Positions 5,098 through 26,911 of a stretch of DNA of 64,000 nucleotides are shown here, piece after piece. Each line of letters opens with the position of its first letter. The stretch's first letter is position 1. The stretch is from Dysgonomonas sp. BGC7 (GTDB taxonomy: Bacteria > Bacteroidota > Bacteroidia > Bacteroidales > Dysgonomonadaceae). The stretch covers positions 1-64,000 of the forward strand of contig NZ_CVRP01000023.1 of the NCBI RefSeq assembly GCF_001261735.1. The letters run 5' to 3'. The notes below the pieces were generated by a model. The model had not been told where the DNA came from. It saw nothing but the letters and a program-made list of their open reading frames with translations, and made no database searches. Both the position numbers and the translations under genes were made by a program.

Positions 5098-5104
5098 AAC
5101 TTTA

Positions 5105-6757: not shown

Positions 6758-7870
6758 TTAGAGTTTTATTCTGCTTGTGGTTGGCCCATCAACAACTAAT
6801 TGTCCATTGTCAGAGACTTCCATCTTATCAATGAATACGACTCGATTTTTTCCGGTTTTTTCAGTACGTGCATGATATACACAAAGCATCTGTCCATTAT
6901 CGAGAGTGAGCACCATGCAATGTCCTGTGCCTGTAACATCTCCTCCTTTTTCTACATTCTTTTCAAGCACAGGATTATTTTCAGCCTTAACAAATGGCCC
7001 TAATGGGTTCTTGGAAGTTGCGTAGCCTACTGCATAATTTGCTCCTCCAAAGAAATTGGCAGAGTACATCATATAAAATGTATCTCCTTTTTTGAAAATA
7101 TATGAGCCTTCTGTCCAGCGACGATTCACTTCGTGCGATGTTACAGAACGACTTTCCCATTCTGCTTGTTTATCACTCATTTTGAGAGGTGGGCGTAATA
7201 ACAGTATTGGTTCGCCAATAATGTCTGTAAAGTCAGGCTTTATTTCTATACCATAAATCCAACTTTCTTCTATCTCGTTGTACCATCCTTGCTTTTTTGC
7301 CCAATCGGCAACTTCACTTTCTACCGGATTTTTGTAACAACAACGAGAGTAATACAGATACACTTTACCTGTTTCGTCATCGAAATACAGGTTGGCATCT
7401 ATTATTGGATACCCCGGATCAAAAATAGGTTTTCCGTTCATCTCTACAAATGGCCCTGTAGGGCTATCTGCTACAGCTACGCCTATACGAAAGTTTTCAC
7501 CTTCATTTGTTGGATTATGCTTCCAATTGGCACTATACCAAATGTAATATTTACCATTCCTTTCGTACACTTCAGGAGCCCAAAAGCAATTGAGCGCCCA
7601 CGATTCTGGCGTTGCACCTTCGTATACAATACCCTTGTCTGTCCAATCTTTAAGATTATCGGATGAATATACTTTAAATCCGTTAATATTTTCGGAAGTA
7701 CCATACATGTAAAATTTCCCGTCAGAGGCTTTTAATACAAAAGGATCTCCAAACTCTACGGGCAAAGGATTTTCAATTTCTATAGCCGATTTATTCTCAG
7801 TCTTTTTGTTTTCGCTACAAGACAAGAATAAAGAGAAGGCTGTAATTACTATCAGATAAAAGATCTTCAT
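6758..7870 (-). CDS. GH43 family lipoprotein glycosidase
   Basis: This is a five-bladed beta-propeller glycosidase of family GH43, whose members are mostly alpha-L-arabinofuranosidases, arabinanases, beta-xylosidases or beta-galactosidases. A lipoprotein signal ends in SLFLSCSE near residue 19. The inverting general base is probably D42 in FGDPFVL, followed by the blade motif FWAPEV near residue 96 and DANLYFDD, which carries the expected modulating Asp. FRIGVAVADSPTGPF is a typical GH43 blade. The gene is last in the operon, 17 bp after the GH2 gene and followed by a strong terminator. Substrate specificity cannot be fixed from sequence; arabinose-containing side chains are my inference. Confidence 0.85.
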   Translation of the reverse strand: MKIFYLIVITAFSLFLSCSENKKTENKSAIEIENPLPVEFGDPFVLKASDGKFYMYGTSENINGFKVYSSDNLKDWTDKGIVYEGATPESWALNCFWAPEVYERNGKYYIWYSANWKHNPTNEGENFRIGVAVADSPTGPFVEMNGKPIFDPGYPIIDANLYFDDETGKVYLYYSRCCYKNPVESEVADWAKKQGWYNEIEESWIYGIEIKPDFTDIIGEPILLLRPPLKMSDKQAEWESRSVTSHEVNRRWTEGSYIFKKGDTFYMMYSANFFGGANYAVGYATSKNPLGPFVKAENNPVLEKNVEKGGDVTGTGHCMVLTLDNGQMLCVYHARTEKTGKNRVVFIDKMEVSDNGQLVVDGPTTSRIKL

Positions 7871-7887: not shown

Positions 7888-9699
7888 TTATTTTTCATTT
7901 AAAGCATTACATATCTCCTGATTGATCCGCTTCAGACGAGCTTCATCCAACTTGATAACTTTTCTGTCGTAAGTCATTAATCCGTTAATCTCTACTTCTA
8001 CATCTGTGGTCTGGGTATAAACGGCTGCTGAAAATCCGGCTGTAATAAGTTTTTTCAAAGCTTCGGCATATTTGACATATTCGTCCGTAACTTCTTTCGA
8101 GTTTTTAAACTGTACATATCCCCAGTTTTTGTCAGGTTGCCAGAGATGATCTTTCAGTGGCAATCCTATACCTCCATATTCTCCCAGTACAGTTGCCCGC
8201 TGTGCATCGTAAAGAAACATGTCGGGGCCCGGATAATTATGTAGGTCGAGCATATCTCCACATGTATAGTGATTACCTCCACTAGCCGGATTGACAAGGC
8301 GTGTGGGATCATAAGCTTTTGTCCAGCCAACTATGTCCTGTGTTTTAAATTGCCCCCATGCTTCATTGAAAGGTACCCAAACACCAATACAGGGATATGA
8401 ATACAGATAGTCCATTATTTCTTTCCATTCTTCTCTGAAATTAGCTTCCGATTCTGTAGAACGTGTTATTTCTGCTCCTGTAAAATAGTTTCGCATTTGC
8501 CATTCGGGAGATCTGTCTCCATTTGGCATATCCTGCCATACGATAATGCCTAGTTTGTCGCAATGCGTATACCAGCGTGCCGGTTCAACCTTCACGTGTT
8601 TACGAATCATGTTGTAGCCAAAATCTTTGGTTTTGACAACATCATATTTCAAGGCTTCATCGGTTGGGGCTGTATAGAGCCCGTCAGGCCACCAGCCCTG
8701 ATCTAAAGGTCCGAACTGAAACAGGTCTTTATTATTCAGTTGGAGACGTACAATGCCATTCTTATCTCGTTTTGTTGAATACTTTCTCATGGCTGTGTAG
8801 CTTTTTACTTCGTCAATAACCTTTCCTGCACTGGACAATATTACTCTCAGATCGTATAGGTGAGGAGAATCGGGTGACCATAGTTTATAGTCTTTCATGG
8901 CTATTTCTACCTCCTGACCGCTTATAGACTTTCCTGATGCTATAACTTTTCCATTATCAAGTACCGAAACTTCAATTATATCCGCAGAGCTACTATTGTC
9001 TGTATCAGCCCAAACACTGATAATTCCTTTATCAATATCAGGTATCGTTTTTAGGTTAGTGATATAGTGTTTAGGAACAGACTCGAGCCATACTGTTTGC
9101 CATATACCCGAAACCGGTGTGTACCAAATCCCATGAGGCTTATTCACCTGTTTCCCTCTGGGTTGATACCCTGCATCGGTCGGATCCCACACTTTTACAA
9201 CGAGTTTGTTGCTTTTTTTCATCAAAGCTGCGGAAATATCGAAAGAGAAAGGGGTATACCCTCCTGTGTGGCTACCTACTTTAATATCATTTACCCAAAT
9301 TTCAGCCTTCCAGTCTACTGCTCCGAAATGTAACAATGTTTTGCCATTGTGCCATGCTGTCGGGATAGTAAACTCGCGACTATACCATAACTCATTATCT
9401 TTTCCCAATGTTTTTTGAACACCGGATAAGCTAGACTCTACAGCAAAAGGCACAAGTATCTTTCCATCAGATTGGTTCTGTTGATACTTGCCTATAGGAA
9501 CAATGGCATAATCCCATAACCCGTTCAGATTTAACCAATCGGAGCGTTCCATAATTGGTCGGGGATATTCAGGCAAGACATTGTTTACATCTATTGTCGA
9601 TGCCCATGTCGTTTTTAGTTTTTCTCCGGCAGGAGACCACTGAGAATGCCCTGTTATGGTTAACAGGCATAATGTAATTAGTAAAAATAATCGTCCCAT
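7888..9699 (-). CDS. GH2 glycosidase (short beta-galactosidase-like)
   Basis: This is an exported GH2 enzyme with a Sec signal (MGRLFLLITLCLLTITGHSQ). The order is the family's usual one: sugar-binding jelly roll (residues 45-210, with LNLNGLWDYAI and FGAVDWKAEIWVN), Ig-like domain (about 215-305) and TIM barrel to the C-terminus. The acid/base is E446 in PFNEAWG and the nucleophile is E507 in LGEYGG. At 603 residues it lacks the extra C-terminal domains of LacZ. It sits between two GH43 genes with gaps of 17 and 27 bp. Possible activities include beta-galactosidase, beta-glucuronidase and alpha-L-arabinopyranosidase-like; I cannot choose among them. Confidence 0.85.
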   Translation of the reverse strand: MGRLFLLITLCLLTITGHSQWSPAGEKLKTTWASTIDVNNVLPEYPRPIMERSDWLNLNGLWDYAIVPIGKYQQNQSDGKILVPFAVESSLSGVQKTLGKDNELWYSREFTIPTAWHNGKTLLHFGAVDWKAEIWVNDIKVGSHTGGYTPFSFDISAALMKKSNKLVVKVWDPTDAGYQPRGKQVNKPHGIWYTPVSGIWQTVWLESVPKHYITNLKTIPDIDKGIISVWADTDNSSSADIIEVSVLDNGKVIASGKSISGQEVEIAMKDYKLWSPDSPHLYDLRVILSSAGKVIDEVKSYTAMRKYSTKRDKNGIVRLQLNNKDLFQFGPLDQGWWPDGLYTAPTDEALKYDVVKTKDFGYNMIRKHVKVEPARWYTHCDKLGIIVWQDMPNGDRSPEWQMRNYFTGAEITRSTESEANFREEWKEIMDYLYSYPCIGVWVPFNEAWGQFKTQDIVGWTKAYDPTRLVNPASGGNHYTCGDMLDLHNYPGPDMFLYDAQRATVLGEYGGIGLPLKDHLWQPDKNWGYVQFKNSKEVTDEYVKYAEALKKLITAGFSAAVYTQTTDVEVEINGLMTYDRKVIKLDEARLKRINQEICNALNEK

Positions 9700-9726: not shown

Positions 9727-10701
9727 TTAGAAATAAGGCTTTTCTATGCGTGACTGTGAAGAATAGTTTACGACAGGCCACTCGTTTTTCCATTTTACTT
9801 TGTTCAGCATCAAGACTCTTCCATGAGGATTGTCTTTATCAATCGCATGATAGAAAAGCCAGTCTTGCCCTTTCTTATCTTGAACAATTTCGGAATTATG
9901 TCCTGTGCCTACAAAGCGTTCGTTTGCACTAATAAGTATTTCGTGATGATTGTTCATCATAGATTCACCTTTTTTATTTACATAAGGGCCAAACAGATCT
10001 TTAGAACGTCCCACAACCGTTGTGTAGGTACTATTTACTCCCTCACAACAAGAACCTATGGAGGCAAACAGATAGTAAAAACCATCGTGTTTGTGGATGT
10101 ATGTTCCTTCATACGCTGTTCCTGCAATCTGTACTTTTTCACTACCTTTCTTGAGTGCAAGCCCGTCGTCTTCTAATTCTATTCCGTATATTCCTCTGAA
10201 ACTTCCCCAAAATAGATATTTTCTCCCATTATCCTCTATGTAGAAAGGGTCTATCGAATTCTGTACTCCTATGGTATTACTTCTGAATAACATCCTTTTG
10301 TCAGTAAAAGGTCCGCTAGGCGTATCGGCTACTGCTACCCCTATACCGCATGTCCACTCTTTACCCCAAACTGACATAGAATAATAGAGTATATACTTGC
10401 CGTTGATAATGTTAATGTCCGGCGCCCATAGTCCTCCGCGAGGTTCGAATGTAGGGCGGGTTTGTTTAGAGAAGACGGTTCCTGTCAGTTCCCAGTCGAT
10501 TAGATTTTTCGATTTATGAATAGGTATATTGGGTATGTCTTCTGTGGCATATAAGTAGAAGTAACCGTCAGGAGCTTGTATAATTGAAGGATCGGGTAAA
10601 CTATAATTGATTACCGGATTTGAATATACTGCCTTAGTTCGGCAGCCACTCATTCCTAAACTGAATATTGATATTAGATAAATGAAAACAAATTTGGACA
10701 T
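9727..10701 (-). CDS. GH43 family lipoprotein glycosidase
   Basis: This 324-residue GH43 enzyme consists of essentially one propeller domain after a lipoprotein signal (LGMSGCRT, lipid-bearing Cys near residue 20). The general base is probably D37 in SLPDPSII. Further blade motifs are GLWAPDINIINGKYILYYS, then IDPFYIEDNGRKYLFWG, where the Asp is the expected pKa modulator, and GTAYEGTYI, where the Glu is the likely acid. VGTGHNSEIV supplies the His often seen at the GH43 active-site centre. Gaps of 26-27 bp to both neighbours indicate one operon. The three GH43 proteins of this operon differ clearly from one another, suggesting different linkages on one branched glycan. Confidence 0.85.
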   Translation of the reverse strand: MSKFVFIYLISIFSLGMSGCRTKAVYSNPVINYSLPDPSIIQAPDGYFYLYATEDIPNIPIHKSKNLIDWELTGTVFSKQTRPTFEPRGGLWAPDINIINGKYILYYSMSVWGKEWTCGIGVAVADTPSGPFTDKRMLFRSNTIGVQNSIDPFYIEDNGRKYLFWGSFRGIYGIELEDDGLALKKGSEKVQIAGTAYEGTYIHKHDGFYYLFASIGSCCEGVNSTYTTVVGRSKDLFGPYVNKKGESMMNNHHEILISANERFVGTGHNSEIVQDKKGQDWLFYHAIDKDNPHGRVLMLNKVKWKNEWPVVNYSSQSRIEKPYF

Positions 10702-10727: not shown

Positions 10728-12089
10728 TTAATGACTTTCTCCGGAGGGTATCGCAACTTTCTCTCCCCAGCCTACAGGAGTACCGAAGTCGGGAGTGCCG
10801 TCAGACTTCCATTTGAAACTTTGCATAAATGTTGATCTTCCAGATTCATAAGTTGCGTCATTGCGATTTTTTACATGGTATACAATCCAATCCTCTGTCT
10901 CGTCCGGCGATTTTGTGAAACTACAATGTCCTACACCATTAACTCCATTTACACTAGAAGTCTCGTCGCATCGGGTAAATACCGAAGCCGAAGATTTAGT
11001 CCAGTTTGTTCTTACCGTAGGATCTTTCAGGGTATCACTTAGCATTACATAGCCTAAGCGATAGTTCTTCGTCCATGATCCATTGCATGAATATACGACA
11101 AAAAATTTATTCTTCTCTTTATTTTTTAGAAATGCCGGACCTTCATTTATCTTTGTTGAGGAAGCGACTAGCTCCCAATATTGATCGGCTCTTGATATTA
11201 TGTGCCTTTTGCTGCTAATAGTATAAGGATTAGACATTTTTGCAATATAAAGTATTTGTTCGGAGGTGCCTTCCGGATATCCAGACCATACAGCATAGAG
11301 TTGCTTGTTAAGGTTGAATACGCCAAGGTCTATAGCATAATATGTATTGGCTATAGTAGGTTTTGTTCCTTCTTGATAATTATCTCCTGTATATAGCATT
11401 CCCATATCTTCCCATTCACCCATCGGGTCGTCAGTCTTAGCTCTCAGCACCCCGCTTCTCTGTTGATAATATCCCAACTCGGACTTTGGACGCCCTGCTG
11501 CATAATATATATACCATCTCCCATCTACACGGTGGAGCTCAGGAGCCCAAACATGTGTAACATTCCATGGCTTTTCGTTTCCTTTGTCTACCGGAGCTTT
11601 CCATACACTTTTAGTTGCTGTTATTTCAGAAAGCTTACCGGATCTGGAAATATTGATCCCATCTCCTTGGGCTTTACAGATATAATAATATTCCTTGTGT
11701 TTAATGATCCAAGGATCGGGTATTCCTGCTATTGGGTTTGTAAAGGTAAGTTCGCTTTGCGTAATGGTTAGTTCTACAGATTTTAAACCATTGCTGCTTA
11801 ATGTTATAATGCCGGTACGCTTGTTCGTTGAGTTTTCATCATATACTATCTTTATAGTAGCATTTCCTGTACCATCTTTCTTTTCAGGTCTTAGCCACGA
11901 AGCGTTTGTCTCTATTTTCCAAGACGTATTTGACGTGATATAAAGGTTGAAAAATCCGGATGGATTAGCCACTAATTTCTCTTGTGTATTTATACTTAAA
12001 TACGGCTTTTCTTTATTTTCTGTCTCACCAGAGCTGTCTCCACAACTTAAACATAGGAGAAAAATAATAATTAAATGTAAGTGTTTCAT
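10728..12089 (-). CDS. BACON-GH43 lipoprotein glycosidase
   Basis: A lipoprotein signal (LLCLSCGD) is followed by a BACON domain at about residues 28-112, recognisable from TSWKIETNASWLRPEKKDGTG and the closing VELTITQS. BACON domains occur in Bacteroidetes surface glycosidases and are thought to act as spacers or carbohydrate/mucin contacts. The GH43 propeller follows, with general base D125 in GIPDPWII, THVWAPELHRVDGRWYIYYA, and EGPAFL supplying the likely acid Glu. VGHCSFTKS is the late His-bearing blade. The gene lies 40 bp after the FAD oxidoreductase gene and belongs to the same transcript. The acidic residues just after the lipid Cys fit surface exposure. Confidence 0.85.
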   Translation of the reverse strand: MKHLHLIIIFLLCLSCGDSSGETENKEKPYLSINTQEKLVANPSGFFNLYITSNTSWKIETNASWLRPEKKDGTGNATIKIVYDENSTNKRTGIITLSSNGLKSVELTITQSELTFTNPIAGIPDPWIIKHKEYYYICKAQGDGINISRSGKLSEITATKSVWKAPVDKGNEKPWNVTHVWAPELHRVDGRWYIYYAAGRPKSELGYYQQRSGVLRAKTDDPMGEWEDMGMLYTGDNYQEGTKPTIANTYYAIDLGVFNLNKQLYAVWSGYPEGTSEQILYIAKMSNPYTISSKRHIISRADQYWELVASSTKINEGPAFLKNKEKNKFFVVYSCNGSWTKNYRLGYVMLSDTLKDPTVRTNWTKSSASVFTRCDETSSVNGVNGVGHCSFTKSPDETEDWIVYHVKNRNDATYESGRSTFMQSFKWKSDGTPDFGTPVGWGEKVAIPSGESH

Positions 12090-12129: not shown

Positions 12130-13989
12130 TTATCGAAGATTCTTGAAAAGAGTGTGAATAACTTCTCGTCGGGTTTTTCCTATATTATCAATCTCTTTCC
12201 CTGAGAGTTTTTTCCACAATGCAGCAGTTATATTGTCTAATGGTTTATCTAGTCGAGCATCCCAGTTTGGGAAGAATCCTTTTAAAGCTAATTTTTGCAC
12301 TAAAGAAAAATCCGGATCAGTATTCTTCAGATCCTTGAAATATATAAGTGTTGCCCCATTGGACAAAAGCTTTTCTTGTAAACTAAATGGAGAAATATTC
12401 CGAACATTCCCGGAGTTGTCTATTGCGATTGAAGCGGCAATTCCGGCAGCTTCGCCCAGTGCCATCCAACAAGGTTCCATACGTAGAGTAGAAAAACCGA
12501 CATGACTACCTGAAACTGCTACGGGAAACAATAGATTATCTATTGTTTGGGGAACCATAACTCCATATGGAACAGTATATACTGCTGATGGATAACTGAA
12601 AAAACCATCGAGATGTATTCTTTCCGGCTCACGCTTGCGTACAGCATGAGAATCCAGTGCATAATGACTAGCGGTAATGGATGATAGATGGATCGGAGGA
12701 CGTCCTCCTTTTGCTGAAGGTAGAGCATCATTGGCTGTAAAAAAGTGTATTCCTTCCAGACGTCTGCCTTCGCGTACATAAACTTGTCGGGGAAATCCGT
12801 CATTGTCAGGGTATTCATCTTTGGCCAATCCCCATTGTTTACACGCTTCTCGGAAATGAGCCGGTAAAGCATCATCATTTTGTGCAAACCATAGTAGTCC
12901 TAAAGTGTACGATTTGAGTCTCTCTGCAAAACGATCTCTCCATTCCCATCCTGAAGTAGGCCACGGCCAGTTTTCTTCTGGAAGGTCTGTTGATATAAGA
13001 GCGAGATGTTGATTGTTGGCATCTGTTTTTCCATTCGGAAGTTTAGTCATACTGCTTAACTTTGCTATTCCCCATATATCTCCTAAGGCGGAGGAACGTT
13101 CTCCTCTTGAAACTTTTTTTCTGTTTTCCTCTATTTTTGCCTCATCCATCTCCTTAAAACGGATATCTGTATTGCGGCCAGTAAACACATCATCAATGAG
13201 AGAAATATACTCAAGTCTATTATAATTGTCAGGTTTTGAAATCAGCTTGCGGATGTTTGCCTCATTGGTAAGGCAAAGACGGTAATTATATGCCTGTATT
13301 GCATTGTCTCCCTGATAGGTTGTACCTTCTGCATCAGGTCCATGTTTCCACCATCGGTATATTTTTCCGGCACAAGGCTCGCTGTATTCTTCTGCTCCCT
13401 CTCGCCCAAGTTTAAATGGGATACCTGCCGCCGCACCTAGATCACCTTCGTATGTGGCATCTATAAATATTTTACCTGTGTAAAATTCTTCTTCTCCTGT
13501 TTCTCTATTCAATATGCGTATAGAGTGTATTCGATTCCCTTGCTTAGTTACATAGCGAGGCTCAGAATCAAATTGACGTAGTTTCAGTATTGTAATCTTA
13601 CCACTCTTTGTTTGACGAAGCATTCTCTCGAAAGTTTTGGCTGCCACATGAGGTTCGAAATGATAACCATCGCTACAATCCTGAACCTGTACTGACTGTG
13701 CTCCATATTTTTCGATATAGTATGCTTTATTTAAAGCAACAAACTGTTCGAATAGTCCGGTAGTTGCTCCTCGTGTTCCAATGTCAGTTGCTCCTAATCC
13801 GTTGACCGGTAAGCCTCCAATATGTTCTGTTCTTTCCAGAATCACACAGTTTTTGCCTTCTCTGGCTGCGGCTATAGCTGCAGTAATACCTGCCGGATTG
13901 CCTCCGACTATCACTAAATCATAATCGGATGCGTAAGAACTATGGCTGATAACTGATAAAAGGAGAAGTAAGATTACAATCTTTTTCAT
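12130..13989 (-). CDS. Exported FAD-dependent oxidoreductase (PF12831-type)
   Basis: This is a 619-residue flavoprotein with a cleavable Sec signal (residues 1-20). Directly after the signal comes the ADP-binding Rossmann motif in DYDLVIVGGNPAGITAA, with a Glu-ending second strand (VILERTEHIGG). GKIFIDATYEGDLGAAAG is the second FAD contact typical of the FAD_oxidored family, and GSHVGFSTLRMEPCWMALGEAAGIAA near the C-terminus is the conserved closing FAD motif. Members are common in Bacteroidetes PULs but mostly uncharacterised; some are labelled xanthan-lyase-related without proof. It sits 20 bp after the DUF1080 gene and close to the Gfo/Idh/MocA gene, suggesting a shared role in oxidising a sugar substrate in the periplasm. 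That role is inference. Confidence 0.8.
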   Translation of the reverse strand: MKKIVILLLLLSVISHSSYASDYDLVIVGGNPAGITAAIAAAREGKNCVILERTEHIGGLPVNGLGATDIGTRGATTGLFEQFVALNKAYYIEKYGAQSVQVQDCSDGYHFEPHVAAKTFERMLRQTKSGKITILKLRQFDSEPRYVTKQGNRIHSIRILNRETGEEEFYTGKIFIDATYEGDLGAAAGIPFKLGREGAEEYSEPCAGKIYRWWKHGPDAEGTTYQGDNAIQAYNYRLCLTNEANIRKLISKPDNYNRLEYISLIDDVFTGRNTDIRFKEMDEAKIEENRKKVSRGERSSALGDIWGIAKLSSMTKLPNGKTDANNQHLALISTDLPEENWPWPTSGWEWRDRFAERLKSYTLGLLWFAQNDDALPAHFREACKQWGLAKDEYPDNDGFPRQVYVREGRRLEGIHFFTANDALPSAKGGRPPIHLSSITASHYALDSHAVRKREPERIHLDGFFSYPSAVYTVPYGVMVPQTIDNLLFPVAVSGSHVGFSTLRMEPCWMALGEAAGIAASIAIDNSGNVRNISPFSLQEKLLSNGATLIYFKDLKNTDPDFSLVQKLALKGFFPNWDARLDKPLDNITAALWKKLSGKEIDNIGKTRREVIHTLFKNLR

Positions 13990-14009
13990 CTATAGTAAAA
14001 GACTTGTCT

Positions 14010-14732
14010 TTACAGTTCTTTGATTTTTACATTCTTAAACCATACTTCATCACCATGATCCTGTAGAAGAATATTCCCTTCTGTTACATTACCAAAGTTT
14101 GCCCAGTTGCGATATTTACTGTATGCAACCAGTGCATTCCACATCTGATTGTTGCGTTCGTATTCTATCAGTTTTACTCCGTTGAGCCAGTGTTCTACTT
14201 TATTATCTTTCACAATAACCATAGCCGTATTAAACTCACCTTTTTTGAAAGGCTTGTTGTCCGGGGCAGGTATCAGATCGTATAAAGCGCCTAGCTTACG
14301 GTTACCTTTCACTCCTAGTTTTGCATCGGGATGCTTATCGTCATCCAATATCTGAAATTCGCATCCGATAGAAGAACCGGCTCCTTTGTTTGTCTCCGTG
14401 TCTACAAAGTATTTAATTCCGCTATTAGCACCTTCCGTTATTTTGAAGTCTACTTTGATAATAAAATTCTTGTATTTGCGGGTAGTTACTATATCTCCTC
14501 CATTCGCAGATTCTCCTCCTCCGCTCTTCATTACTTTAAGTATTCCATTATTTATAACCCAGCCTTTAGCAGGAAAAGAATTTAGTTTAGCTCCACGCCA
14601 CCCGTTACTGGTTTTTCCATCCCACAAGAGTTGCCAGCCTTCTCTTTTCTCTTGTTCTGTTAGCGTATTGTCCTGTGCATATATTGATAATGAAAACAGG
14701 CATATGATGAGCACTGATATATATTTTTTCAT
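14010..14732 (-). CDS. DUF1080 / 3-keto-disaccharide hydrolase family protein
   Basis: This exported protein has a Sec signal ending around YAQDN and a concanavalin-like beta-sandwich of the DUF1080 family, now named 3-keto-disaccharide hydrolase (PF06439). Family motifs are [59 protein letters not shown] and the closing [19 protein letters not shown]. Characterised relatives act on 3-oxo-glycosides, releasing the 3-keto sugar after an oxidoreductase has oxidised C3. I chose the ATG at 14732 because it gives a proper signal peptide; the longer frame from 14780 would overlap the upstream gene. The neighbours on both sides are exported oxidoreductases, exactly the partners this chemistry needs. 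Confidence 0.8.
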
Positions 14733-14755
14733 TTGTTGTTTATTTTGATTTATTA

Positions 14756-16174
14756 TTACACTATATAGAAATCTTCCCAACCTTTTCTTGGCGGTAACCC
14801 GGAGAGCATTGCATTGGCAAACTTGTCGTTGGTTATCTGGTTTGTACGGCTGTCGAAATAAAGCTTCCTGTTCAGGCGCTGAGCTATAACACCAAGAGAA
14901 AATACCTGACTAAGTGGCCCGTGTATCTCGAATGGTGAACGTGTCTTCTCTAGTCCCTGACAGGCCAGCAGGAAGTTCTCAAAATGATTGGACGGGCTTT
15001 TGGGTACTTCGGGTAGTCTGGAAGCCATTTCCTTCGCTTTCGATTCGGGTATAATAGACAGTGTACTGCCATGTGAAGCTCCTTTGAAGGTCAGCTCCTT
15101 ACCATAGATGATCTTGCCGGGATTGATCTTTTGTTTCTTTATCTCTCCCACACTCGATGCAGGTATATTCGGATCTATGGCAGACTCTCCGTAACCTTCC
15201 GGCAATGGAGGCAGGTTGTCCACCCCATCGTACCATGTCACATCGCAAGCCGGCATCTCTCCTCTGGGACCGAATTTGAACAGGATGGTCGAAGACATCG
15301 GATAGAAAAAGTCGTTATGCCCTGTCAGCTTCACAGGGTTGATTTCGTATGGAAGTCCCAGTTCCAGAAATTCATGTACCGTGTCCAGTATATGGGCACC
15401 CCAGTCTCCCATAGCTCCCATACCATAGTCGAACCAACTGCGCCATTCTCCGTAATGATATACTTTGTTGTATTCGTGGTAAGGAACAGCACAATTCCAG
15501 TTGATCCAGTCCAATGTCGGAGGTATAGGCTCTGCATCGGGATATTTATACATGTTCACATCCCATGTATGCCAGCGGCGGGGATTGTTCATATGCGCAG
15601 CAACGGCTGTTATGTCTTTGATGATACCTGCATCCTGCCATGCCTTGAACTGGAAGTAGTTGGCTTCGGAGTGCCCCTGATTACCCACCTGTGTCACTAC
15701 TTTGGAGTATTTACGGGCTGCCTGCATCATCAGGTCGGCCTCGAGAAAAGTACGGGCCATCGGTTTCTCTACAAATACGTGCTTACCATAAGCCATAGCC
15801 ATCATACAGATAGGGAAATGCGAATGGTCGGGCGTGGCTATGGCCACAGCTTCTATCTGATTGCCCATTTTGTCAAACATTTGGCGGAAATCCTGAAACT
15901 GTTTTGCCTTCGGGTATTTGGCCATTACTTTTTGGGTATGTTTTGCTCCCATGTCTATATCACACAGGGCTACCACATTTACCATACCTGTTTTCTCAAA
16001 ATCACCGATGATCTGTTCTCCTCTGTTGCCGATGCCGACATAGGCGATGTTGATCTTTCGTGACGAACCGACAATTCTGTTATAGCTTTGGCCGGACATC
16101 GCATTGACGCCGCTTACGGCCAGACCGGCGGAGGCTAACGCTGCCGTCTTTAGAAAATTCCTTCGTGTTTGCAT
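14756..16174 (-). CDS. Tat-exported Gfo/Idh/MocA family oxidoreductase
   Basis: This is a 472-residue NAD(P)-dependent sugar oxidoreductase with a twin-arginine signal ([15 protein letters not shown]), so it should be folded with its cofactor and exported to the periplasm. The Rossmann region gives [16 protein letters not shown] at about residue 39. The catalytic lysine is expected in [10 protein letters not shown] near residue 132, as in the family. The C-terminal half matches the bacterial oxidoreductase extension seen in PUL members. Related B. thetaiotaomicron proteins oxidise glycosides at C3 before a DUF1080 enzyme cleaves them, and a DUF1080 gene follows 23 bp downstream. The gene is visibly richer in G+C than its neighbours, which suggests a separate origin. 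Confidence 0.85.
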
Positions 16175-16336: not shown

Positions 16337-19057
16337 TTATTTTATTTTAACTTTGAACTCCTGCTTTTCTATATTAAACCCTCTAATTATAAGTTTATAC
16401 TCACTTTTTGTGAGTTTTTTTATGTCGGTCTCAATTTTTATATGTTCACCTTCACTCGGTAATAGGCATAAAAAATTGTTTGTGTAAAAGGAAGGTCTTA
16501 TGGGTTTTCCTTCATAATCAAGCCATTGTACTTGAGTGAAAAAGGAGAGAGACTTACTTGTATTTTTCAGATCGAGATTGATAATATGTTTTCCATTTTC
16601 TACAGAAGTAGTATATTTTACATTGATTTTAGCTTTTGCCAGATCTTTAATATCCTGAAAACCTGCTGTTGCTGGTCCGGTAATTGTTTTACGTCCTTCA
16701 TACTTATTGTTCGATCGCCAATAAAAATTGCTTCCTACCTGCTTATTCTTATTGTCGAATAGTCTGAGCTTTATAAATTGGATAGAAGTTGTCGCCGAAG
16801 AAAAATCAATATTGAATACATCATTTATAACACCGTCTTCGGGAAGGTTAACTATTGCTTCCTTCGTGAAAATCTTTTTCATATTAAGGTCGTATACATC
16901 GGCTGTTACTTTATAATTATTGAATGATTTATAATAGTCATTTACAACAGATACAGTATTTTTCAAATAGTCGAACTGAGGATGTAACGGTTCACAAGCG
17001 TTTTGTGCGGCATATAGAGCAGCCGTAGGCTCGAGAGACCAATCCCACATACGCCCGCAGACTTGTCGTATAGGAGAATTGTGATACCAATAGAGAACAC
17101 CTGAGGTATAGCGGTCTCCATAATGTAACTTATTGTAGTTCCAAACTTCCCAGATACTTTTATAGTTTAACGCTCCTACGAATTGAGCTTTTTCAGCAAA
17201 TTCGTCTATGCTATTAGATATTCCATATTCATTAGTCATATCGGTATACATAGTAGACATCAGATGAAAACCATTACCATCCGAATAGTCCCATACTTCT
17301 TTGTTTATTGGCCACAGGTCTTTTTCGTCCATCATTTCACGAAGACATTCTACTGTCGGGAGGCAAGGCGCTCCGTATTCCGGATTGAAGCCGTCGACAC
17401 GGCTTCCTCTATCCGATGCTGTGTTTTCATAATGTGTCATTATATTTACTTGCTTGTAAGGGCTGCCATCATGTATACCGTCACATTCCGATTCCATTTG
17501 GTAGCCGCGTGTACCGTCAAGTTTATTTATTAATTCTTTTGCGTGAGGCATTTCAGAACTCTCGTTGGATGAAACGTAATATGCCAGACTTGGATGATTG
17601 CGTATTCGTTTTACGGTTGATGTTAAGTTTGAAAGATACATATCTCTATCTACAGGATGTTTTGTATCCCCTGTCATCCAAAATTCTTGCCATACAAGTA
17701 TTCCCAGCTCATCGCATAGTTGGAAAAAATAATCGGATTCAGTAATGCCACCGCCCCAAAATCGGATGAGATTTATTCCCGATTGTGCAGAATATTTTAA
17801 TTCGGCATAAGTTCGCTCATCTGAAGTTCGCAACATGTTTTCAGGTAACCAGTTTGTACCTCTTATGAAAATTGGTTTGCCATTGATGTAAAATGTGCGG
17901 GATTTGTCAGGTGTATTTGTAGAAGAGGTTATTTCTCTTATTCCGAATCGGGTAGATATAGAATCGGTTATCTCTCCGTTTATTTCAGTTTTGAAGACAA
18001 GATCGTACAACTCTTGACTTCCTTTATTTACCGGCCACCATAAGCGAGGATTGTTTATTACAAGTTGAGGAAACTCTTCGGGAGTAAAGATAACCTCTTG
18101 AACTTCTTCTCTGAATAGGGATATTTCTTTTTCGAATAGGATTCCCTCACTTTTTATTTCTCCAATTACTTTTACCTTTTGGCGACGGTTTTGCTGAAGG
18201 TAGTTCGGGTATGCAACTTCTACCGAAATGGTTTGACGAGAAGAGTTATAGCCGGGTTTGGATAATTCTGATTTTACGAAGGGATGATTCAGTTTCGTCC
18301 TTCCTGTTGCGAAAATTGAGATGTCTTTCCATATGCCTGTATTCCTGTCTCTGATACCATCGAGAAAAGTAAAATCCCAGCCTACTGTCATAAGCTGCGT
18401 TACATTTTTACCGATTTCGCCATTTCCTCCATTTTGAAACTCTCCGGTTGCACCGAAAGATTTCCCTCCTTTGGGTTTGATGGTTCCCGGCACATCTATA
18501 GGATAAACTTTTACCGACAGGATATTTTCTTTATCGAAGACTACCTTGTCTGAGATGTCTATTTGTCTTTGTTGAAACATTCCTGCTATATTACCAACCA
18601 TACTCCCATTAAGCCATACTTCGGCTCTGTAGTTGATGCCATCCACTTGTAGCCATACCTTCTTGTTTTTAAATTGTTCTCTGTCGAGATTAAATTCGGT
18701 ACGAAACCAATAGGTGTAAAAGTCTCTGCCGGAATGAAAAAGGTCGGGTATTAGTTCCGATTCCAACTTATTATTTATACCATAGTATGGTTCAGGGTAT
18801 TTTTTATTATAAACAAGAGAATTTAAGACTGTACCGGGTACAACTGCGGGCATCCAATCCGAGTCGTCTATTTTGTCTGTAGAAATATCCTCGCTGCGTA
18901 CGTTCAATTCATTTGCCTTTTTCATTTTCCAGACAAATTTTCCATTATGTCCGTCGGTTGAAGTTAACGTGTGATTGTAATGACGTTCTTTGTGCACATT
19001 TTGTGCTGAAGAAAAAATAGTAATAATAAAAAGTAAGATAAATAATAAATTTTTCAT
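16337..19057 (-). CDS. GH2 glycosidase (exo-beta-glucosaminidase/beta-mannosidase-like)
   Basis: This large 906-residue exported GH2 enzyme is first in the operon. A Sec signal ends near FSSAQN. The sugar-binding domain covers about residues 45-245, followed by an Ig-like domain, the TIM barrel (about 370-690) and two more beta-sandwich domains. Motifs FIRGTNWLPENML and INLIRFWGGGITESDYF match the subfamily of exo-beta-D-glucosaminidases, endo-beta-mannosidases and beta-mannosidases rather than LacZ. The acid/base is E499 in SSNESSEM and the nucleophile is probably E610 in TNEYGIS. A 162-bp gap separates it from the Gfo/Idh gene, so a second promoter there is possible. The start lies 245 bp from the divergent HTCS gene. 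Confidence 0.85.
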   Translation of the reverse strand: MKNLLFILLFIITIFSSAQNVHKERHYNHTLTSTDGHNGKFVWKMKKANELNVRSEDISTDKIDDSDWMPAVVPGTVLNSLVYNKKYPEPYYGINNKLESELIPDLFHSGRDFYTYWFRTEFNLDREQFKNKKVWLQVDGINYRAEVWLNGSMVGNIAGMFQQRQIDISDKVVFDKENILSVKVYPIDVPGTIKPKGGKSFGATGEFQNGGNGEIGKNVTQLMTVGWDFTFLDGIRDRNTGIWKDISIFATGRTKLNHPFVKSELSKPGYNSSRQTISVEVAYPNYLQQNRRQKVKVIGEIKSEGILFEKEISLFREEVQEVIFTPEEFPQLVINNPRLWWPVNKGSQELYDLVFKTEINGEITDSISTRFGIREITSSTNTPDKSRTFYINGKPIFIRGTNWLPENMLRTSDERTYAELKYSAQSGINLIRFWGGGITESDYFFQLCDELGILVWQEFWMTGDTKHPVDRDMYLSNLTSTVKRIRNHPSLAYYVSSNESSEMPHAKELINKLDGTRGYQMESECDGIHDGSPYKQVNIMTHYENTASDRGSRVDGFNPEYGAPCLPTVECLREMMDEKDLWPINKEVWDYSDGNGFHLMSTMYTDMTNEYGISNSIDEFAEKAQFVGALNYKSIWEVWNYNKLHYGDRYTSGVLYWYHNSPIRQVCGRMWDWSLEPTAALYAAQNACEPLHPQFDYLKNTVSVVNDYYKSFNNYKVTADVYDLNMKKIFTKEAIVNLPEDGVINDVFNIDFSSATTSIQFIKLRLFDNKNKQVGSNFYWRSNNKYEGRKTITGPATAGFQDIKDLAKAKINVKYTTSVENGKHIINLDLKNTSKSLSFFTQVQWLDYEGKPIRPSFYTNNFLCLLPSEGEHIKIETDIKKLTKSEYKLIIRGFNIEKQEFKVKIK

Positions 19058-19301: not shown

Positions 19302-22300
19302 ATGAAGCACCTCCGACCAATTCTATTACTGTTTTTATTTGTTAGTGTTTCATCTTATCTGAAAGCATATAATATCCGGCAAATTAGCAGCAGGGATGGG
19401 CTGTCTAACAGTGCTGTTATATGTTTATTTGAGGATAAGGAGCGTTATCTATGGATAGGTACTTATGATGGTCTTAACAAATACAATGGGATTGATCTGA
19501 AAATCTACAAACCTGACATTAACGATAAGAACAGCCTTTCAGGGAATGTAATAAGAAGAATAGTGGAATCGAAAGACGGCTATTTATGGATTATGACCAG
19601 ATGGGGGTTAAATAAGTATTCGAAAAAAGAGGACAAAGTAGAAGCCTATTTCAATGAATTTAAAGAAGACTCTGTAATAGCTTCGGATAGCGATGGTAAT
19701 ATTTTTGTACTTACCCAGTCCGGATTGTTTTATTATTATGATTTTGAAGCAAAGCAGTTTAAAGAAATTCTTTTTCCAGGATCTAAGGAATATAAAAGCT
19801 GGGTAAGCCTTATTATTAATTCGAAGGATGAACTACTGATTACCAATAATGGAGTAATTAAGCAGTATCGTCTCGATTGGACAGACTGCTTAAAGCCTCA
19901 ATTAGTGAATATAGGAAAACTTGATCATACAGAATCTGTCAGCTATATTTTTAATAATGATAATCATTTATTTATTGTTGATAGAATCGGCGATTTATTT
20001 TTTATTGAGTCCGGAAAGAAAACTTTTATAAGAAATATAAAATCGCTTATTGCTGAATATGGCGATATTACTTCTGTTATTTTCGATGACAATGATATTC
20101 TTATCGGATTCAGAACAAATGGATTGATTAGACTCGATTACAAGAAAAAATATGAGATGGAGAAAATGCCCATAAATTGCGGTGTTTTTTCGTTGTTGAA
20201 AGATAAAGTGCAAGATATACTATGGGTTGGTACTGATGGACAAGGTGTGTACGCTTGTACAAAACAGGAATTCACCTTCAAGGGAATCAATCTGGAAGAA
20301 CTGCCTGTAAAAAAACAAAGACCAGTCCGCGCTATTTATAGCGATCAGGATAATTCTCTGTGGTTAGGAACCAAAGGAAATGGTATTATTAAAATAGAAA
20401 ATTATGGTAGCGCAACAGAATATGATCGGCAAAATGTTAAGCATCTTACTATAGATAATGGCTTGAGCAATAATGCCGTTTTTGCTTTCGAAAAGAGTTG
20501 TCGAAATGATATTCTTTGGATAGGCTCTAGTGGTCCCAATCTGAACTATTATTCGTATAACGATAAGAAAATACATATCCTGAAAAATCAAGGAGCTATT
20601 CGCTTTGCAGAGGTACATAGCTTATTGGAAACTTCCGATTCTGTTCTTTGGGTTGCTTCTTTAAATTATCTGTTTAAGGTAAATATTTTTAGAAATAAAA
20701 ATGTACTGGAAATAAGAAATATTCGTAGGTATGAATTTGATATAAAAAACAAACAGATCTTTAATCAAATTTATTCCATATGCCCCGAAAATGATTCTAT
20801 AATGTGGTTGGCGATGCGGGGTAACGGAGCTATCAGATTGAATTGTAATAGCGGAGAATACAAGCTCATTACATTCGAAAAGAATGGTATTGCACCAATG
20901 GATGATGTGTTAAGTATATATATAGACAAAAGAGGGAACAGGTGGTTTGGCTCGAGCTATGGAATAAATGATCTGAAAGTGCTGCCTGATGGAATATTCG
21001 ACTATAGGAATTTTAATGTAAATGATGGTTTGCCAAACAATACAATTCATGGAATACTGGAAAATTCTGATGGTAGATTGTGGTTAAGCAGCAACGCCGG
21101 AATTGTTCTTTTCGATCCAATTAAAGAGACTTTTCGTAGCTTCAATCAGCGAACAGGACTGAAAGTGATGGAGTTCAGTGATAATGCCTATCACAAAGAT
21201 GAGCAGTTGTCCCGATATTTCTTTGGTGGGGTGGATGGAATTGTATGGATAGACTACAAAGAGCAGATAAAGAAAGATAATTTTCTTTCGATAAATTTCT
21301 CAAAGCTTCGTGTCTTCAATGAGGAATATAATATTGATAATTTTCTCGAACATGGAGCAGACGAGAGGTACTTGAAACTGAAACATGATCAGAACTTCTT
21401 TACTATTTCCTTTGTTGCAAACGATTTTATCAATGGAGCCAGTGGTAAATATTCTTACAAGTTAGATTATTTTAATGAAGTTTGGATGAATTCTAATAAT
21501 CGTGAAGCACAGTTTACGAATATTCCACCGGGAAAATACACCCTGATCGTAAAATATGATGATTTGTCGGGAGGAAAAGTTCAGATTGCCAGCCTTAATA
21601 TTGTGATAGTGCCCCCTTGGTATTTAAGTATATATGCTAAAATTATATATGCTATCGGATTCATACTTCTATTAATAATATCTTTTCTATATCTGAAAAA
21701 GAAATATGAAAGAAAGAAAGTTAAAATAGAACAACAACTTGATCAGAAATATAAGGAAGAGATGTATGAAGGAAAGTTACATTTCTTTACCAATATAACA
21801 CATGAGTTTTGTACTCCTCTAACATTGATCTACACACCTAGCGAACGTTTGCTAAACTATGCAGGGAGCGATTCTTTTATAAAACGATATGCTCAGATTA
21901 TTAAGACTAATGCCGAAAGACTAAACGATCTCATTCAGGAAATAATCGATTTTCGCCGGATGGAGAGCGGAAATAAAATATGTAAGATTGAGGCTTGTGA
22001 TATAAACGATATTTTTACAGAAATAGCAGAATCATTCACTGATTTGGCAGAAGAAAATCATATTAATTTTAGCCTGAATATTCCTCCTGCAACAGTCTGG
22101 AATTCTGATAGGAGTTGCATTACTAAGATTCTAAACAACTTAATCTCCAATGCCTTCAAATATACAGTCGAAAATGGGACAATAGGTGTCGCTGTTAGTG
22201 TAGAGAATGAAGAATTGATCTTTAGGGTATACAATACGGGTAGAGGCATAAGAAAAGATGATATACCATATATTTTTAACCGATACTCTGTATTGGACAA

Positions 22301-23324
22301 TGTAGAATCAAACTCGCTGAAAGGCCTTTCGTCAAGAAATGGGCTAGGTTTAGCCATTTGTAAAATGATGGTAGACTTACTGCAAGGAACCATAGAGGTA
22401 GAAAGTGAAGAGGGAGAATACGCCAGATTTATAGTAAAACTTCCATTCATGGGGTCAGATAATATTAATGTTGCTAATGAAACCAATGATAGAGATAAAC
22501 TAATCATTGCCGATAGGGAAAGAGAAGAGGTGAAAAGTCTTTTACATAATTCGGGTAGCCGTCATACTATATTGATTATTGATGATAATGACGATGTGCT
22601 TTGGTTGTTGGAGGATATTCTCTCCGAAGACTATAATATACAAATAGCAAGAGATGGAGAAGAAGGTTACAATAAGCTTCAGAATATGATGCCGGATCTT
22701 GTGATAACCGATGTGATGATGCCAAAACAAGACGGTGTATCTCTCACAAGGCTGATAAAAGGCAATCCGTACACGATGCACATACCTCTTATTATCCTTT
22801 CAGCAAAATCTTCGATAGACAGCAGAATAGAAGGAATAGACTCCGGTGCAGATGCTTATATCTCCAAGCCCTTTGATATTCTCTATCTGAAAGCACAAAT
22901 AAGGCAGTTGATAGATAAAAAGAAAAAACTACAGGATTATTATAATAGTTCAGCAAGTGCGTTCGACTTAGTTAACGGTCAGTTATTGGCTAAAGAAGAC
23001 CGTGATTTTATTCAGAAGGCGGTGCAGATTGTAGAGAAAAATATAAGTAATGCAGAATTTAGTCCCGAAGACTTGGCCGATGGTTTGCAGGTAAGTATCA
23101 GAACTCTTTACCGTAAATTTAAGGATTTGGAATTACTTTCTCCCAAAGACTTTATAAAAGATCAGCGCATAGTATATGCTGCTAAATTAATATTAAGCAC
23201 TACTCTGACTATTCAGGAAATAATGTTTAGTGCAGGTTTTACGACAAGATCACACTTTTATAAAGAATTTACAAAACGCTTTGATCGATCTCCGAAAGAA
23301 TATAGAGAAGATCATAGTATATAA
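19302..23324 (+). CDS. Hybrid two-component system regulator (HTCS)
   Basis: This single-chain PUL regulator senses an oligosaccharide in the periplasm and activates transcription. After a Sec signal, about 670 residues form two beta-propellers of Reg_prop repeats (recurrent motifs such as GLSNNAVFAFEKS and DGRLWLSSNAGIVLFDP). A Y_Y_Y domain (about 700-770) and one membrane helix (about 779-802) follow. The kinase has H834 in THEFCTPLTLI, N-box NNLISNAFKYT and G-box GLGLAICK. The receiver carries phospho-acceptor D1137 in VITDVMMP. The C-terminus is an AraC-type HTH (about 1246-1336). The gene is divergent from the GH43/GH2 operon and is its natural regulator, perhaps also of the plus-strand locus downstream. 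Confidence 0.95.
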   Translation: MKHLRPILLLFLFVSVSSYLKAYNIRQISSRDGLSNSAVICLFEDKERYLWIGTYDGLNKYNGIDLKIYKPDINDKNSLSGNVIRRIVESKDGYLWIMTRWGLNKYSKKEDKVEAYFNEFKEDSVIASDSDGNIFVLTQSGLFYYYDFEAKQFKEILFPGSKEYKSWVSLIINSKDELLITNNGVIKQYRLDWTDCLKPQLVNIGKLDHTESVSYIFNNDNHLFIVDRIGDLFFIESGKKTFIRNIKSLIAEYGDITSVIFDDNDILIGFRTNGLIRLDYKKKYEMEKMPINCGVFSLLKDKVQDILWVGTDGQGVYACTKQEFTFKGINLEELPVKKQRPVRAIYSDQDNSLWLGTKGNGIIKIENYGSATEYDRQNVKHLTIDNGLSNNAVFAFEKSCRNDILWIGSSGPNLNYYSYNDKKIHILKNQGAIRFAEVHSLLETSDSVLWVASLNYLFKVNIFRNKNVLEIRNIRRYEFDIKNKQIFNQIYSICPENDSIMWLAMRGNGAIRLNCNSGEYKLITFEKNGIAPMDDVLSIYIDKRGNRWFGSSYGINDLKVLPDGIFDYRNFNVNDGLPNNTIHGILENSDGRLWLSSNAGIVLFDPIKETFRSFNQRTGLKVMEFSDNAYHKDEQLSRYFFGGVDGIVWIDYKEQIKKDNFLSINFSKLRVFNEEYNIDNFLEHGADERYLKLKHDQNFFTISFVANDFINGASGKYSYKLDYFNEVWMNSNNREAQFTNIPPGKYTLIVKYDDLSGGKVQIASLNIVIVPPWYLSIYAKIIYAIGFILLLIISFLYLKKKYERKKVKIEQQLDQKYKEEMYEGKLHFFTNITHEFCTPLTLIYTPSERLLNYAGSDSFIKRYAQIIKTNAERLNDLIQEIIDFRRMESGNKICKIEACDINDIFTEIAESFTDLAEENHINFSLNIPPATVWNSDRSCITKILNNLISNAFKYTVENGTIGVAVSVENEELIFRVYNTGRGIRKDDIPYIFNRYSVLDNVESNSLKGLSSRNGLGLAICKMMVDLLQGTIEVESEEGEYARFIVKLPFMGSDNINVANETNDRDKLIIADREREEVKSLLHNSGSRHTILIIDDNDDVLWLLEDILSEDYNIQIARDGEEGYNKLQNMMPDLVITDVMMPKQDGVSLTRLIKGNPYTMHIPLIILSAKSSIDSRIEGIDSGADAYISKPFDILYLKAQIRQLIDKKKKLQDYYNSSASAFDLVNGQLLAKEDRDFIQKAVQIVEKNISNAEFSPEDLADGLQVSIRTLYRKFKDLELLSPKDFIKDQRIVYAAKLILSTTLTIQEIMFSAGFTTRSHFYKEFTKRFDRSPKEYREDHSI

Positions 23325-26833: not shown

Positions 26834-26911
26834 TCTTTCGGTTCTTATTGTATTCTTCTTTCTTTAAATCTAATTCTAATTCTCAATATCATATTCCTAA
26901 ATCAACGTATT

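Follow-up and report, generated by a model that had tools for sequence, protein, structure and literature searches.

Gene content of the locus

The genes described here lie in a stretch of 64,000 nucleotides from Dysgonomonas sp. BGC7 that was analysed as a whole (the window), within a region that is a Dysgonomonas polysaccharide-utilisation operon. On the minus strand, in order of transcription, the operon encodes a GH2 protein of 906 residues whose nearest solved relative is the exo-beta-D-glucosaminidase 2vzs (16337..19057), a Tat-type Gfo/Idh/MocA dehydrogenase of 472 residues that is likely a glycoside 3-dehydrogenase (GFO; 14756..16174), a single-domain protein of DUF1080, the 3-keto-disaccharide hydrolase family, with its own putative signal peptide (240 residues; 14010..14732), and a PF12831 flavoprotein of 619 residues that is predicted to be exported (FAD; 12130..13989). 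These are followed by a GH43 gene with a BACON domain (10728..12089), a second GH43 gene (9727..10701) whose nearest NCBIfam model is arabinanase AbnA at 163.7 bits, under the cut-off of 480, a second GH2 gene (7888..9699) and a third GH43 gene (6758..7870). The intergenic gaps are 162 bp from the GH2 stop to the GFO start, 23 bp from GFO to DUF1080, 20 bp from DUF1080 to FAD and 40 bp from FAD to GH43. The set of three genes that the original prediction had singled out is thus real and in its predicted place, all three being open reading frames on the minus strand, and the GH43/GH2 operon setting was upheld by Pfam, with three GH43 and two GH2 genes. Divergent from the operon, the plus strand carries a hybrid two-component regulator (HTCS; 19302..23324), a sigma factor gene (23389-23949), a FecR-type anti-sigma gene (24007-25206), a PF07470 (GH88/GH105) unsaturated uronyl hydrolase-like gene with 3k11 and YteR (1nc5) as nearest solved relatives (25483..26703), a GDSL esterase gene (26807..27757), SusC (28049-31480) and SusD (31492-33330). 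Among the families scored, GH130 had no match in the window.

The flavoprotein matches PF12831 (FAD_oxidored) over the full length of the model (1-416 of 416) at 271 bits, and its Rossmann glycines G29, G30 and G34 are at least 90% conserved across 61 alignment rows. Its N-terminus resembles a Sec signal peptide by eye, and a twin-arginine-like motif occurs within the first 25 residues in one of 59 FAD frames of 580-640 residues (L092). Known FAD-dependent glycoside 3-oxidases and dehydrogenases have a GMC fold; none of the 10 Pfam matches with E<=0.01 is to a GMC family. Covalent flavinylation by the ApbE that is encoded near related GFO-DUF1080 pairs, for which [ST]GA[ST] is the site motif, was considered and set aside, the motif being common in none of the scored families. 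Members of the group turn up, though rarely, in SusC/SusD-type loci across several families of Bacteroidota. No characterised member was found in the PDB or in the part of the literature sampled; in the portions consulted, two papers mention an FAD-dependent oxidoreductase near SusC/SusD or GH3 genes and give no function there (PMC11345257, PMC6987092), and a third deals with other proteins (PMC9045290).

GFO carries PF01408 (73.8 bits) and the C-terminal domain PF19051 (48.4 bits), each over its cut-off. Its Tat signal is recognised by the NCBIfam TAT domain (23.0 bits, over the cut-off of 16.7) and falls under the Pfam TAT_signal cut-off (19.8 against 22.7); TatC is encoded in the host genome. 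Among 52 solved matches in all, only 8tdf/8tdh reach E<=1e-30, at about 1e-55 (8tdf, 8.5e-56 over residues 37-449), and the alignment with 8tdf has a common VEKP stretch; we take EKP to be a mark of Gfo/Idh/MocA glycoside dehydrogenases. The top NCBIfam model, glycoside 3-dehydrogenase BT_2158_fam (NF058561), aligns to residues 3-450 at 289.7 bits against an equivalog cut-off of 750, which makes GFO a relative rather than a member, and since the score lies so far under that cut-off the position of oxidation is not fixed by it. GFO does fall within a looser class defined by a Rossmann domain with EKP, a Tat signal (by NCBIfam only) and an adjoining DUF1080 gene.

The DUF1080 protein matches all of PF06439 (1-187 of 187) at 156.7 bits, against a cut-off of 26.8, and has 13 solved relatives. 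Its 240 residues are counted from an internal ATG, the mechanical list of open reading frames beginning at a TTG at 14780, and its N-terminus was judged by eye to be Sec-signal-like. In the consulted part of a review, a different DUF1080 protein is described as an endo-glucanase/xanthanase of the ordinary kind (PMC10881899). GFO and DUF1080 genes adjoin at 21 of 28 GFO places, in loci hand-chosen from match lists, 17 of them by an adjacency rule and four by hand (the window's own locus, labelled WIN, and L034, where the open frames overlap; L118 and L131, where DUF1080 lies immediately upstream). The two genes recur side by side and their products are relatives of solved 3-keto-type enzymes; the pair likely cleaves glycosides via a 3-keto intermediate, as judged from sequence; homology and adjacency together back the original prediction on this point.

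Neighbourhoods of the flavoprotein in relatives

Our survey of 80 loci of FAD relatives places the flavoprotein in different company. The window's GH2 family lies upstream of FAD in 30 of the 80 loci, on the same strand in all 30, and in 26 of these no gene of a scored family, the only genes counted as lying between, separates the two. GH130 and/or PF07470 intervene in L022, L023, L026 and L028, and GFO-DUF1080 does so only in the window. GH130 neighbours FAD in 10 of the 30 GH2 loci and is fused to it in eight further loci of the 80, which fall in two separate clades (L029, L030, L035, L037, L038, L041 and L042 in one, L093 in the other; Pfam was run on four of the eight). In three of these fusions (L037, L038, L041) a GDSL esterase of the same family as the window's is additionally fused behind. 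Distances among the GH2 proteins correlate with those among the flavoproteins (r=0.921 over 31 pairs; at most 0.254 in 2000 shuffles), a correlation that partly reflects shared species descent.

The GH2 protein is not dependent on FAD, since in an even draw of 396 genomes of the class two of the three strong GH2 places (L135, L136) lacked FAD within the 18-20 kb around them. FAD (at E<=1e-150) and GH2 each occur in three of the 396 genomes, too rarely for genome co-occurrence to be tested; both are present in G000 and G212, and their location on different contigs in G212 speaks against an obligatory pair. Relatives' loci also hold GH130, GH115 and GH92 genes, which point to a mannose- or glucuronic-acid-containing glycan at least as well as to the pectin side chain suggested earlier.

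On these counts we reject the three-gene module as a conserved unit: its GFO-DUF1080 part stands as a recurrent pair, and the flavoprotein drops out as a conserved member, with a strong GFO match within 10 kb in only six of the 80 loci (L034, L064, L072, L076, L080, L081). The proposal that FAD is a new oxidant, or a re-oxidant, of the 3-keto pathway, working with GFO and DUF1080 as a functional three-enzyme module, is consequently one we consider unlikely. Those six loci do speak for it, as do the adjoining of the three genes in one likely operon in the window, GFO genes 28 kb and 19 kb from FAD in the genomes of L083 and L088 respectively, a DUF1080 gene 22 kb from FAD on one contig of the metagenome-assembled genome (MAG) G026, and the FAD tree, on which the label 'GH2 + GFO' takes three changes, losses possibly included. 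In seven of eight Bacteroides-clade genomes examined, as well as in the window, no more than about 30 kb separates GFO from GH2-FAD, a linkage that could reflect joint work; in two of the seven it is 19-28 kb off, beyond another SusC/SusD. Against this stand the partners that FAD keeps elsewhere. Its neighbours are GH2 and GH130, its fusion partner is GH130 (eight families tested, GFO and DUF1080 not among them), and the four FAD proteins scanned with Pfam had no GFO or DUF1080 fusion. In 20 of the 80 loci a second PF12831 gene lies upstream, and one of these 20 has another scored enzyme family above 100 bits, weaker matches being to DUF1080 in L056 and to GFO in L047, L067 and L068. The MAG G113 has GH2-FAD but neither a GFO match at E<=1e-100 nor a DUF1080 match above the curated cut-off, absences that are not firm in such an assembly, and the flavoprotein itself is without a GMC-type domain.

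A near-identical second copy of the dehydrogenase gene

The GFO gene is 98.6% identical in DNA to a second, chromosomal copy in the same genome (G000:C4:25159-26574), with 20 mismatches in 1430 bp, dN 0.004 and dS 0.055, and the block of identity runs from 4 bp ahead of the start to 7 bp past the stop. Set against domain 2 of the C4 paralogue, the DUF1080 gene is a mosaic at the DNA level, with patchy identity and a different signal peptide. Together these features indicate recent copying or gene conversion. Simple insertion of a copied pair is weakened as an explanation, and gene conversion fits better, because the identity around GFO ends 4 and 7 bp beyond the coding sequence and the DUF1080 identity is patchy, with another signal peptide. 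The divergent start of DUF1080 is no nearer to single-domain L110 and L113 (67% and 63% by DNA) than to C4 (68%), which singles out none of them as donor of that part.

Such recency raises the prospect that the operon copy is a bystander, a recent duplication of a chromosomal pair with no role for the glycan handled here. Only 3 of 472 GFO residues differ from the C4 copy at that dS, the D. hofstadii GH2-FAD locus lacks the pair, and the sequence upstream of FAD in the CALNCC MAG is without it too, on a contig that stops just past FAD. We nevertheless find this quite unlikely, as GFO has a dN/dS of about 0.07, the frames are intact, DUF1080 has a separate signal peptide and the same pair is linked to such loci in Bacteroides. 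Very improbable is a reading of GFO as an NAD-dependent glycosidase of GH109 type, or another Gfo/Idh/MocA enzyme, in place of a 3-dehydrogenase: the GH109 structure 6t2b is among its solved matches, but aligns only to residues 39-174 at E 3e-6, far short of 8tdf, which leads us to reject GH109, and the PF19051 domain and recurrent DUF1080 neighbour also count against this reading.

Proposed reading and comparison with known systems

Gene content, neighbourhoods, fusions and the near-identity of the GFO copies, all observed directly, lead us to a reading that we hold to be probable, in which two units meet in this polysaccharide-utilisation locus: GH2-FAD, joined by GH130 in relatives, and the GFO-DUF1080 3-keto pair, with FAD belonging to the GH2/GH130 branch. 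The pair sits between GH2 and FAD, and presumably was either copied recently or is an older pair altered by gene conversion. We infer every reaction in the scheme that follows. Tat-exported GFO would oxidise a sugar at C3 using bound NAD, DUF1080 would then cleave the 3-keto glycoside, and the two may thereby open a linkage left by the GH2, GH43 and PF07470 enzymes. FAD would work alongside GH2 and GH130, its substrate being a sugar from the same glycan or a product of it, and would not serve as the oxidant of the 3-keto pair.

More tentatively, the FAD group may form a periplasmic, flavin-based class of glycan processing that acts with GH2 and GH130, even within a single chain that includes GH130 and an esterase, and supplies the main enzymes at loci with SusC-SusD, two or three PF12831 genes and an MFS transporter, GFO-DUF1080 being an interchangeable second redox route. 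A SusC-SusD-FAD-FAD-MFS locus of this kind occurs in Chryseolinea serpens. If this is true, multi-PF12831 SusC-SusD loci with an MFS transporter perform sugar-uptake enzymology without the usual hydrolases, and the NAD-based pair was recruited to the same glycan as the FAD route. Under our preferred reading of two units, separating FAD from the 3-keto pair averts a wrong annotation, the FAD-GH130 fusions in two clades offer a direct handle on the FAD substrate, and the 3-keto pair would be one that moves between, or is homogenised across, sugar-degradation loci.

A 3-keto glycoside pathway encoded by BT2156-BT2160 in Bacteroides thetaiotaomicron, with a counterpart in Alistipes, was reportedly described by Nasseri et al. 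in 2024. Like that set, the window has a Tat-type GFO nearest BT_2158_fam and a PF06439 protein; unlike it, the eight operon genes scanned comprise one GFO, one DUF1080 and neither AP_endonuc_2 nor a second GFO, and the full set is found elsewhere in the same genome, at G000:C14, with ApbE, DoxX and TatC. One paper, in the part consulted, calls BT2157 a 3-ketotrehalose hydrolase (PMC9007349). The GFO and DUF1080 families of the window recur in GFO-DUF1080-ApbE clusters (L110, L113, L125, L126, L130, L131), which differ in having ApbE and mostly a second dehydrogenase (GFO2 in all but L125). FAD was not found in the covered stretches of these six; PF07470/GH43 genes lie beside several, and a GH2-FAD locus lies 28 kb from L125 and 19 kb from L126.

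A comparable scheme, with oxidation in the periplasm and a DUF1080 protein acting next, is proposed for lactose in Caulobacter, where, according to the part consulted, 3-oxidation by LacABC comes first (PMC9007349); the oxidant there is a membrane LacABC dehydrogenase, whereas the window's flavoprotein belongs to PF12831 and has no GMC domain. The SusC-SusD loci with two PF12831 genes hold the same flavoprotein family, about 60% identical, without GH2, GFO or DUF1080 above 100 bits, and their upstream PF12831 protein carries Golvesin_C in both cases tested (L046, L047). The eight loci of the GH2/PF12831-GH130(-GDSL) kind have the window's GH2 and flavoprotein families, with an HTCS in several, and differ in that flavoprotein and GH130 form one polypeptide, which in three also includes the GDSL esterase that the window encodes as a separate gene.

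The GFO–DUF1080 pair and its surroundings

The window (contig C23 of the host genome, G000; genus Dysgonomonas) contains a polysaccharide-utilisation region in which four minus-strand genes are transcribed in the order GH2 glycosidase (16337-19057), Tat-type Gfo/Idh/MocA oxidoreductase (GFO, 14756-16174), DUF1080 protein (PF06439, 14010-14732) and exported PF12831 flavoprotein (FAD, 12130-13989), the last three with the coordinates and family names of the original prediction. Genes for a GH43 with BACON, a GH43, a GH2 and a GH43 continue on this strand 3' of FAD, down to 6758, and on the plus strand an HTCS regulator starting at 19302 is followed by a sigma factor, a FecR-type anti-sigma factor, a PF07470 hydrolase, a GDSL esterase, SusC, SusD and more proteins. 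At the downstream end of the operon, a phage-type integrase (5105-6340) and a gene pair that is AbiE-like by eye (3433-5053) occupy a region (3433-6340) that may be a mobile island. Just past the window, another PF12831 protein (L106, C23:67149-68903) lies in an adjacent SusC/SusD locus that also carries DUF5040 and GH97 genes, and the genome's third full-length PF12831 protein (L123, C7:492000-511000) neighbours DUF4434, a sugar transporter, a GlcNAc 2-epimerase family protein and a GDSL esterase.

The only solved relatives of GFO at E<=1e-30 were 8tdf and 8tdh (about 1e-55), which we take to be glycoside 3-dehydrogenases from a 2024 Nature study. Its nearest NCBIfam model is the BT_2158_fam glycoside 3-dehydrogenase, at 289.7 bits far below the equivalog cut-off of 750. 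DUF1080 matched 13 solved sequences, most closely domain 2 of 4jqt, a two-domain protein. Of 101 genomes in the host's family, 71 contain a close GFO relative (E<=1e-80), and the host genome carries eight DUF1080 domain matches in five places, with a GFO match no more than about 4 kb away at four of them. Among 28 GFO places (frames above 600 bits in a local model, window included, in loci mostly hand-picked from search hit lists), DUF1080 directly adjoins GFO at 21, namely 17 by a scripted rule together with the window and L034, which have overlapping open frames, and L118 and L131, in which DUF1080 lies immediately upstream. The two lie 1.2 kb apart in L081 and 8 kb apart in L076 and L080, and DUF1080 was not found in the stretch read around GFO in L064, L127, L128 and L129. 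Judged from homology and gene order, 3-keto cleavage is the best-supported function of the pair: GFO would oxidise the sugar at C3, DUF1080 would then cleave the 3-keto glycoside, and glycosidases would continue from there.

Elsewhere in the host genome, a cluster of GFO, DoxX, GFO, GFO, DUF1080, AP_endonuc_2, ApbE and TatC (L120, C14:62001-82000) places a 3-keto set beside Tat and flavin-transfer genes. ApbE-family genes lie in or near the GFO–DUF1080 clusters of L113 and L080 (Pfam) and of L110, L125, L126, L130, L131 and L076 (local model); no conserved flavinylation-type motif was found in any scored family.

The window GFO and a copy on contig C4 (25159-26574) differ at 20 bp in 1430 and at 3 residues in 472 (dN 0.004, dS 0.055), and the near-identity begins 4 bp ahead of the start and ends 7 bp past the stop. 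The DUF1080 partner is two-domain at C4 and single-domain, with a different signal peptide, in the window; aligned to C4 domain 2, the window gene shows DNA identities of 68-88% in the first 60 codons, 92-98% over alignment codons 60-180, 77% in codons 180-200 and 89-92% beyond. Past the signal, the window protein resembles the single-domain DUF1080 of L110 (NTLTEQE..REGW), and its DNA there is 67% identical to L110 and 68% to C4, so no nearer L110. Gene conversion of an older GFO–DUF1080 pair fits this mosaic best; an inserted copy fits less well. Such homogenisation across loci may recur, since in B. bouchesdurhonensis and B. faecalis the GFO and PF07470 genes are 96-98% DNA-identical between two loci whose SusC-SusD are about 71% identical.

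GH2 and GH130 around the flavoprotein

Searches of genome contigs gave 243 FAD relatives, and neighbours within 10 kb of FAD, as far as contigs reach, were counted for the best 80 (56-75% identical over their best segment). Thirty of these 80 loci have a strong homologue of the GH2 that precedes GFO in the window, 27 have PF07470 and 18 the GH43a family (>200 bits), but strong GFO is present at 6 and DUF1080 (>200 bits) at 5. GH2 and FAD share a strand in all 30 GH2 loci, with no scored gene between them in 26 and GH130 and/or PF07470 between them in four (L022, L023, L026, L028); GFO plus DUF1080 intervene in the window only. Four of 13 measured GH2/FAD junctions are four-base overlaps, and the protein distances of the two are correlated (r=0.921, 31 pairs; maximum 0.254 in 2000 shuffles), which partly reflects shared species descent. 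On the FAD tree (80 rows: the window and 79 of the 80 loci, L089 being left out for a broken frame), Flavobacteriaceae L026 and L028 are nested within the Dysgonomonas group (99 for the group as a whole, 91 and 83 for its inner forks), and their GH2 is about as close to the window's (77-78%) as that of the Dysgonomonas MAG L022 (77%), which suggests a joint transfer of GH2 and FAD. The FAD gene of L095, on a contig titled Clostridiales, sits beside Muribaculaceae L092 on this tree (100, short branches), and the contig is perhaps mis-binned.

A tight pairing is weakened by several facts. At 50 of the 80 loci no strong GH2 lies within the distance covered. When 396 genomes of the class were drawn evenly, three had FAD (E<=1e-150) and three had GH2 (E<=1e-250); G000 and G212 have both, but G212 carries them on separate contigs. 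No FAD was found in the 18-20 kb read around GH2 in L135 and L136, the former also containing GH130 and SusC/SusD.

Eight of the 80 flavoprotein frames continue into a GH130 domain, seven of them one clade (L029, L030, L035, L037, L038, L041, L042) and L093 in a separate Bacteroides clade, with Pfam confirming L029, L030, L042 and L093. In L037, L038 and L041 the frame (~1240-1280 aa) runs on into a GDSL-type domain of the window esterase's family, a call made outside Pfam, and would, if real, encode a three-part exported enzyme. All eight fusions are GH2 loci; with separate GH130 genes at ten more, GH130 reaches 18 of 30 GH2-FAD loci, against none, separate or fused, over the thresholds used at the 50 loci without GH2. 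The window has no GH130 match among the families scored. Glycan enzymes in relatives' loci include GH130, GH115 (6/30 GH2 loci), GH92, GH43 and PF07470.

A ~672-aa family (for example L029:910-2931, minus strand, and L113:11054-13066; also L030, L110, L125, L081 and others) occurs in 14 of 30 GH2-FAD loci versus 0 of 50 other FAD loci, and also in GFO–DUF1080 loci L110, L113 and L125. It had no Pfam match in three members scanned and no NCBIfam match in one, and may be an enzyme for the same glycan that has yet to be described.

A single-sequence search with FAD matched solved structures in the nucleotide-binding region only, and the best 60 of 141 profile matches were likewise confined to it. 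Y404, R406, E407, R409, R410 and R503 are invariant across 61 aligned relatives, within the consensus motifs YVREGRR and RMEP.

Linkage of the two gene sets and competing readings

The genome-wide GFO search covered 15 genomes (13 behind hand-chosen FAD loci, plus G005 and G026), eight being Bacteroides-clade genomes with GH2-FAD. The sole GFO copy lies within 10 kb of FAD in the genomes of L064, L072 and L081, as does one of two copies in those of L076 and L080; a sole copy lies 28 kb (L083) and 19 kb (L088) away, past another SusC/SusD pair. L093, from a MAG (G113), has GH2-FAD with no GFO at E<=1e-100 and no DUF1080 over the curated cut-off. One of two copies in Alistipes L034 is 4.5 kb from FAD on the opposite strand, the genes are on different contigs in L024, L039, G005 and G026 (in G026 a DUF1080 shares FAD's contig, 22 kb away), and the L026 and L028 genomes gave no GFO at E<=1e-100. 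The label 'GH2 + GFO' requires three changes, gains or losses, on the FAD tree. A shared substrate for GFO–DUF1080 and GH2-FAD is plausible because, by our own arithmetic, chance alone would place a given gene no more than 30 kb from another in about 1% of 5-Mb genomes.

At 20 of the 80 loci a second PF12831 protein lies upstream of FAD, bearing a Golvesin_C domain in both cases tested (L046, L047); five have a third, of about 1000 aa, between the two, with a Tat signal in the one tested (L047). Thirteen of the 20 are SusD-adjacent by a strict rule and seven have an MFS-family gene downstream. The scoring here covered window- and cluster-derived families, and a few genes on the flanks were scanned with Pfam; of the scored families, one other enzyme family exceeded 100 bits, at one locus (GH43, L047), and 3-keto matches stayed below 100 bits (DUF1080 in L056; GFO in L047, L067, L068). 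SusC, SusD, two PF12831 genes and an MFS-family gene stand in a row in L045, L046, L050 and L061, and also in L053, L073 and L090; read gene by gene, the first four have a sigma-like and a FecR-like gene before the row (Pfam calls: FecR in L045, sigma in L046 only).

Our best explanation, that GFO and DUF1080 are a likely 3-keto pair and that FAD would work in a GH2/GH130 branch, is held with moderate confidence, unchanged because the looseness of GH2-FAD and the GFO linkage are set against the fusions. The PF12831 group might be a periplasmic flavin-based glycan-processing class, working with GH2/GH130 or, elsewhere, without the usual hydrolases, with GFO–DUF1080 an interchangeable redox route; the GH130 fusions make this likelier than before, and we regard it as a tentative reading. 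That FAD is an extra oxidant in a three-enzyme module with GFO and DUF1080, as originally predicted, became slightly less likely with the fusions and is now improbable.

Relation to known systems

Our literature search, largely of journals open without subscription and of sources seen in part, returned no report of an association of GH2 with FAD-GH130, nor of SusC-SusD loci with two PF12831 genes. For the pair favoured here as a 3-keto system, the portions of the literature consulted give one DUF1080 protein as an endo-glucanase, a caution for the 3-keto assignment (PMC10881899), and link DUF1080 to 3-ketotrehalose hydrolysis and, as a proposal, to 3'-ketolactose hydrolysis (PMC9007349). The chemistry of GFO–DUF1080 is of an already known kind.
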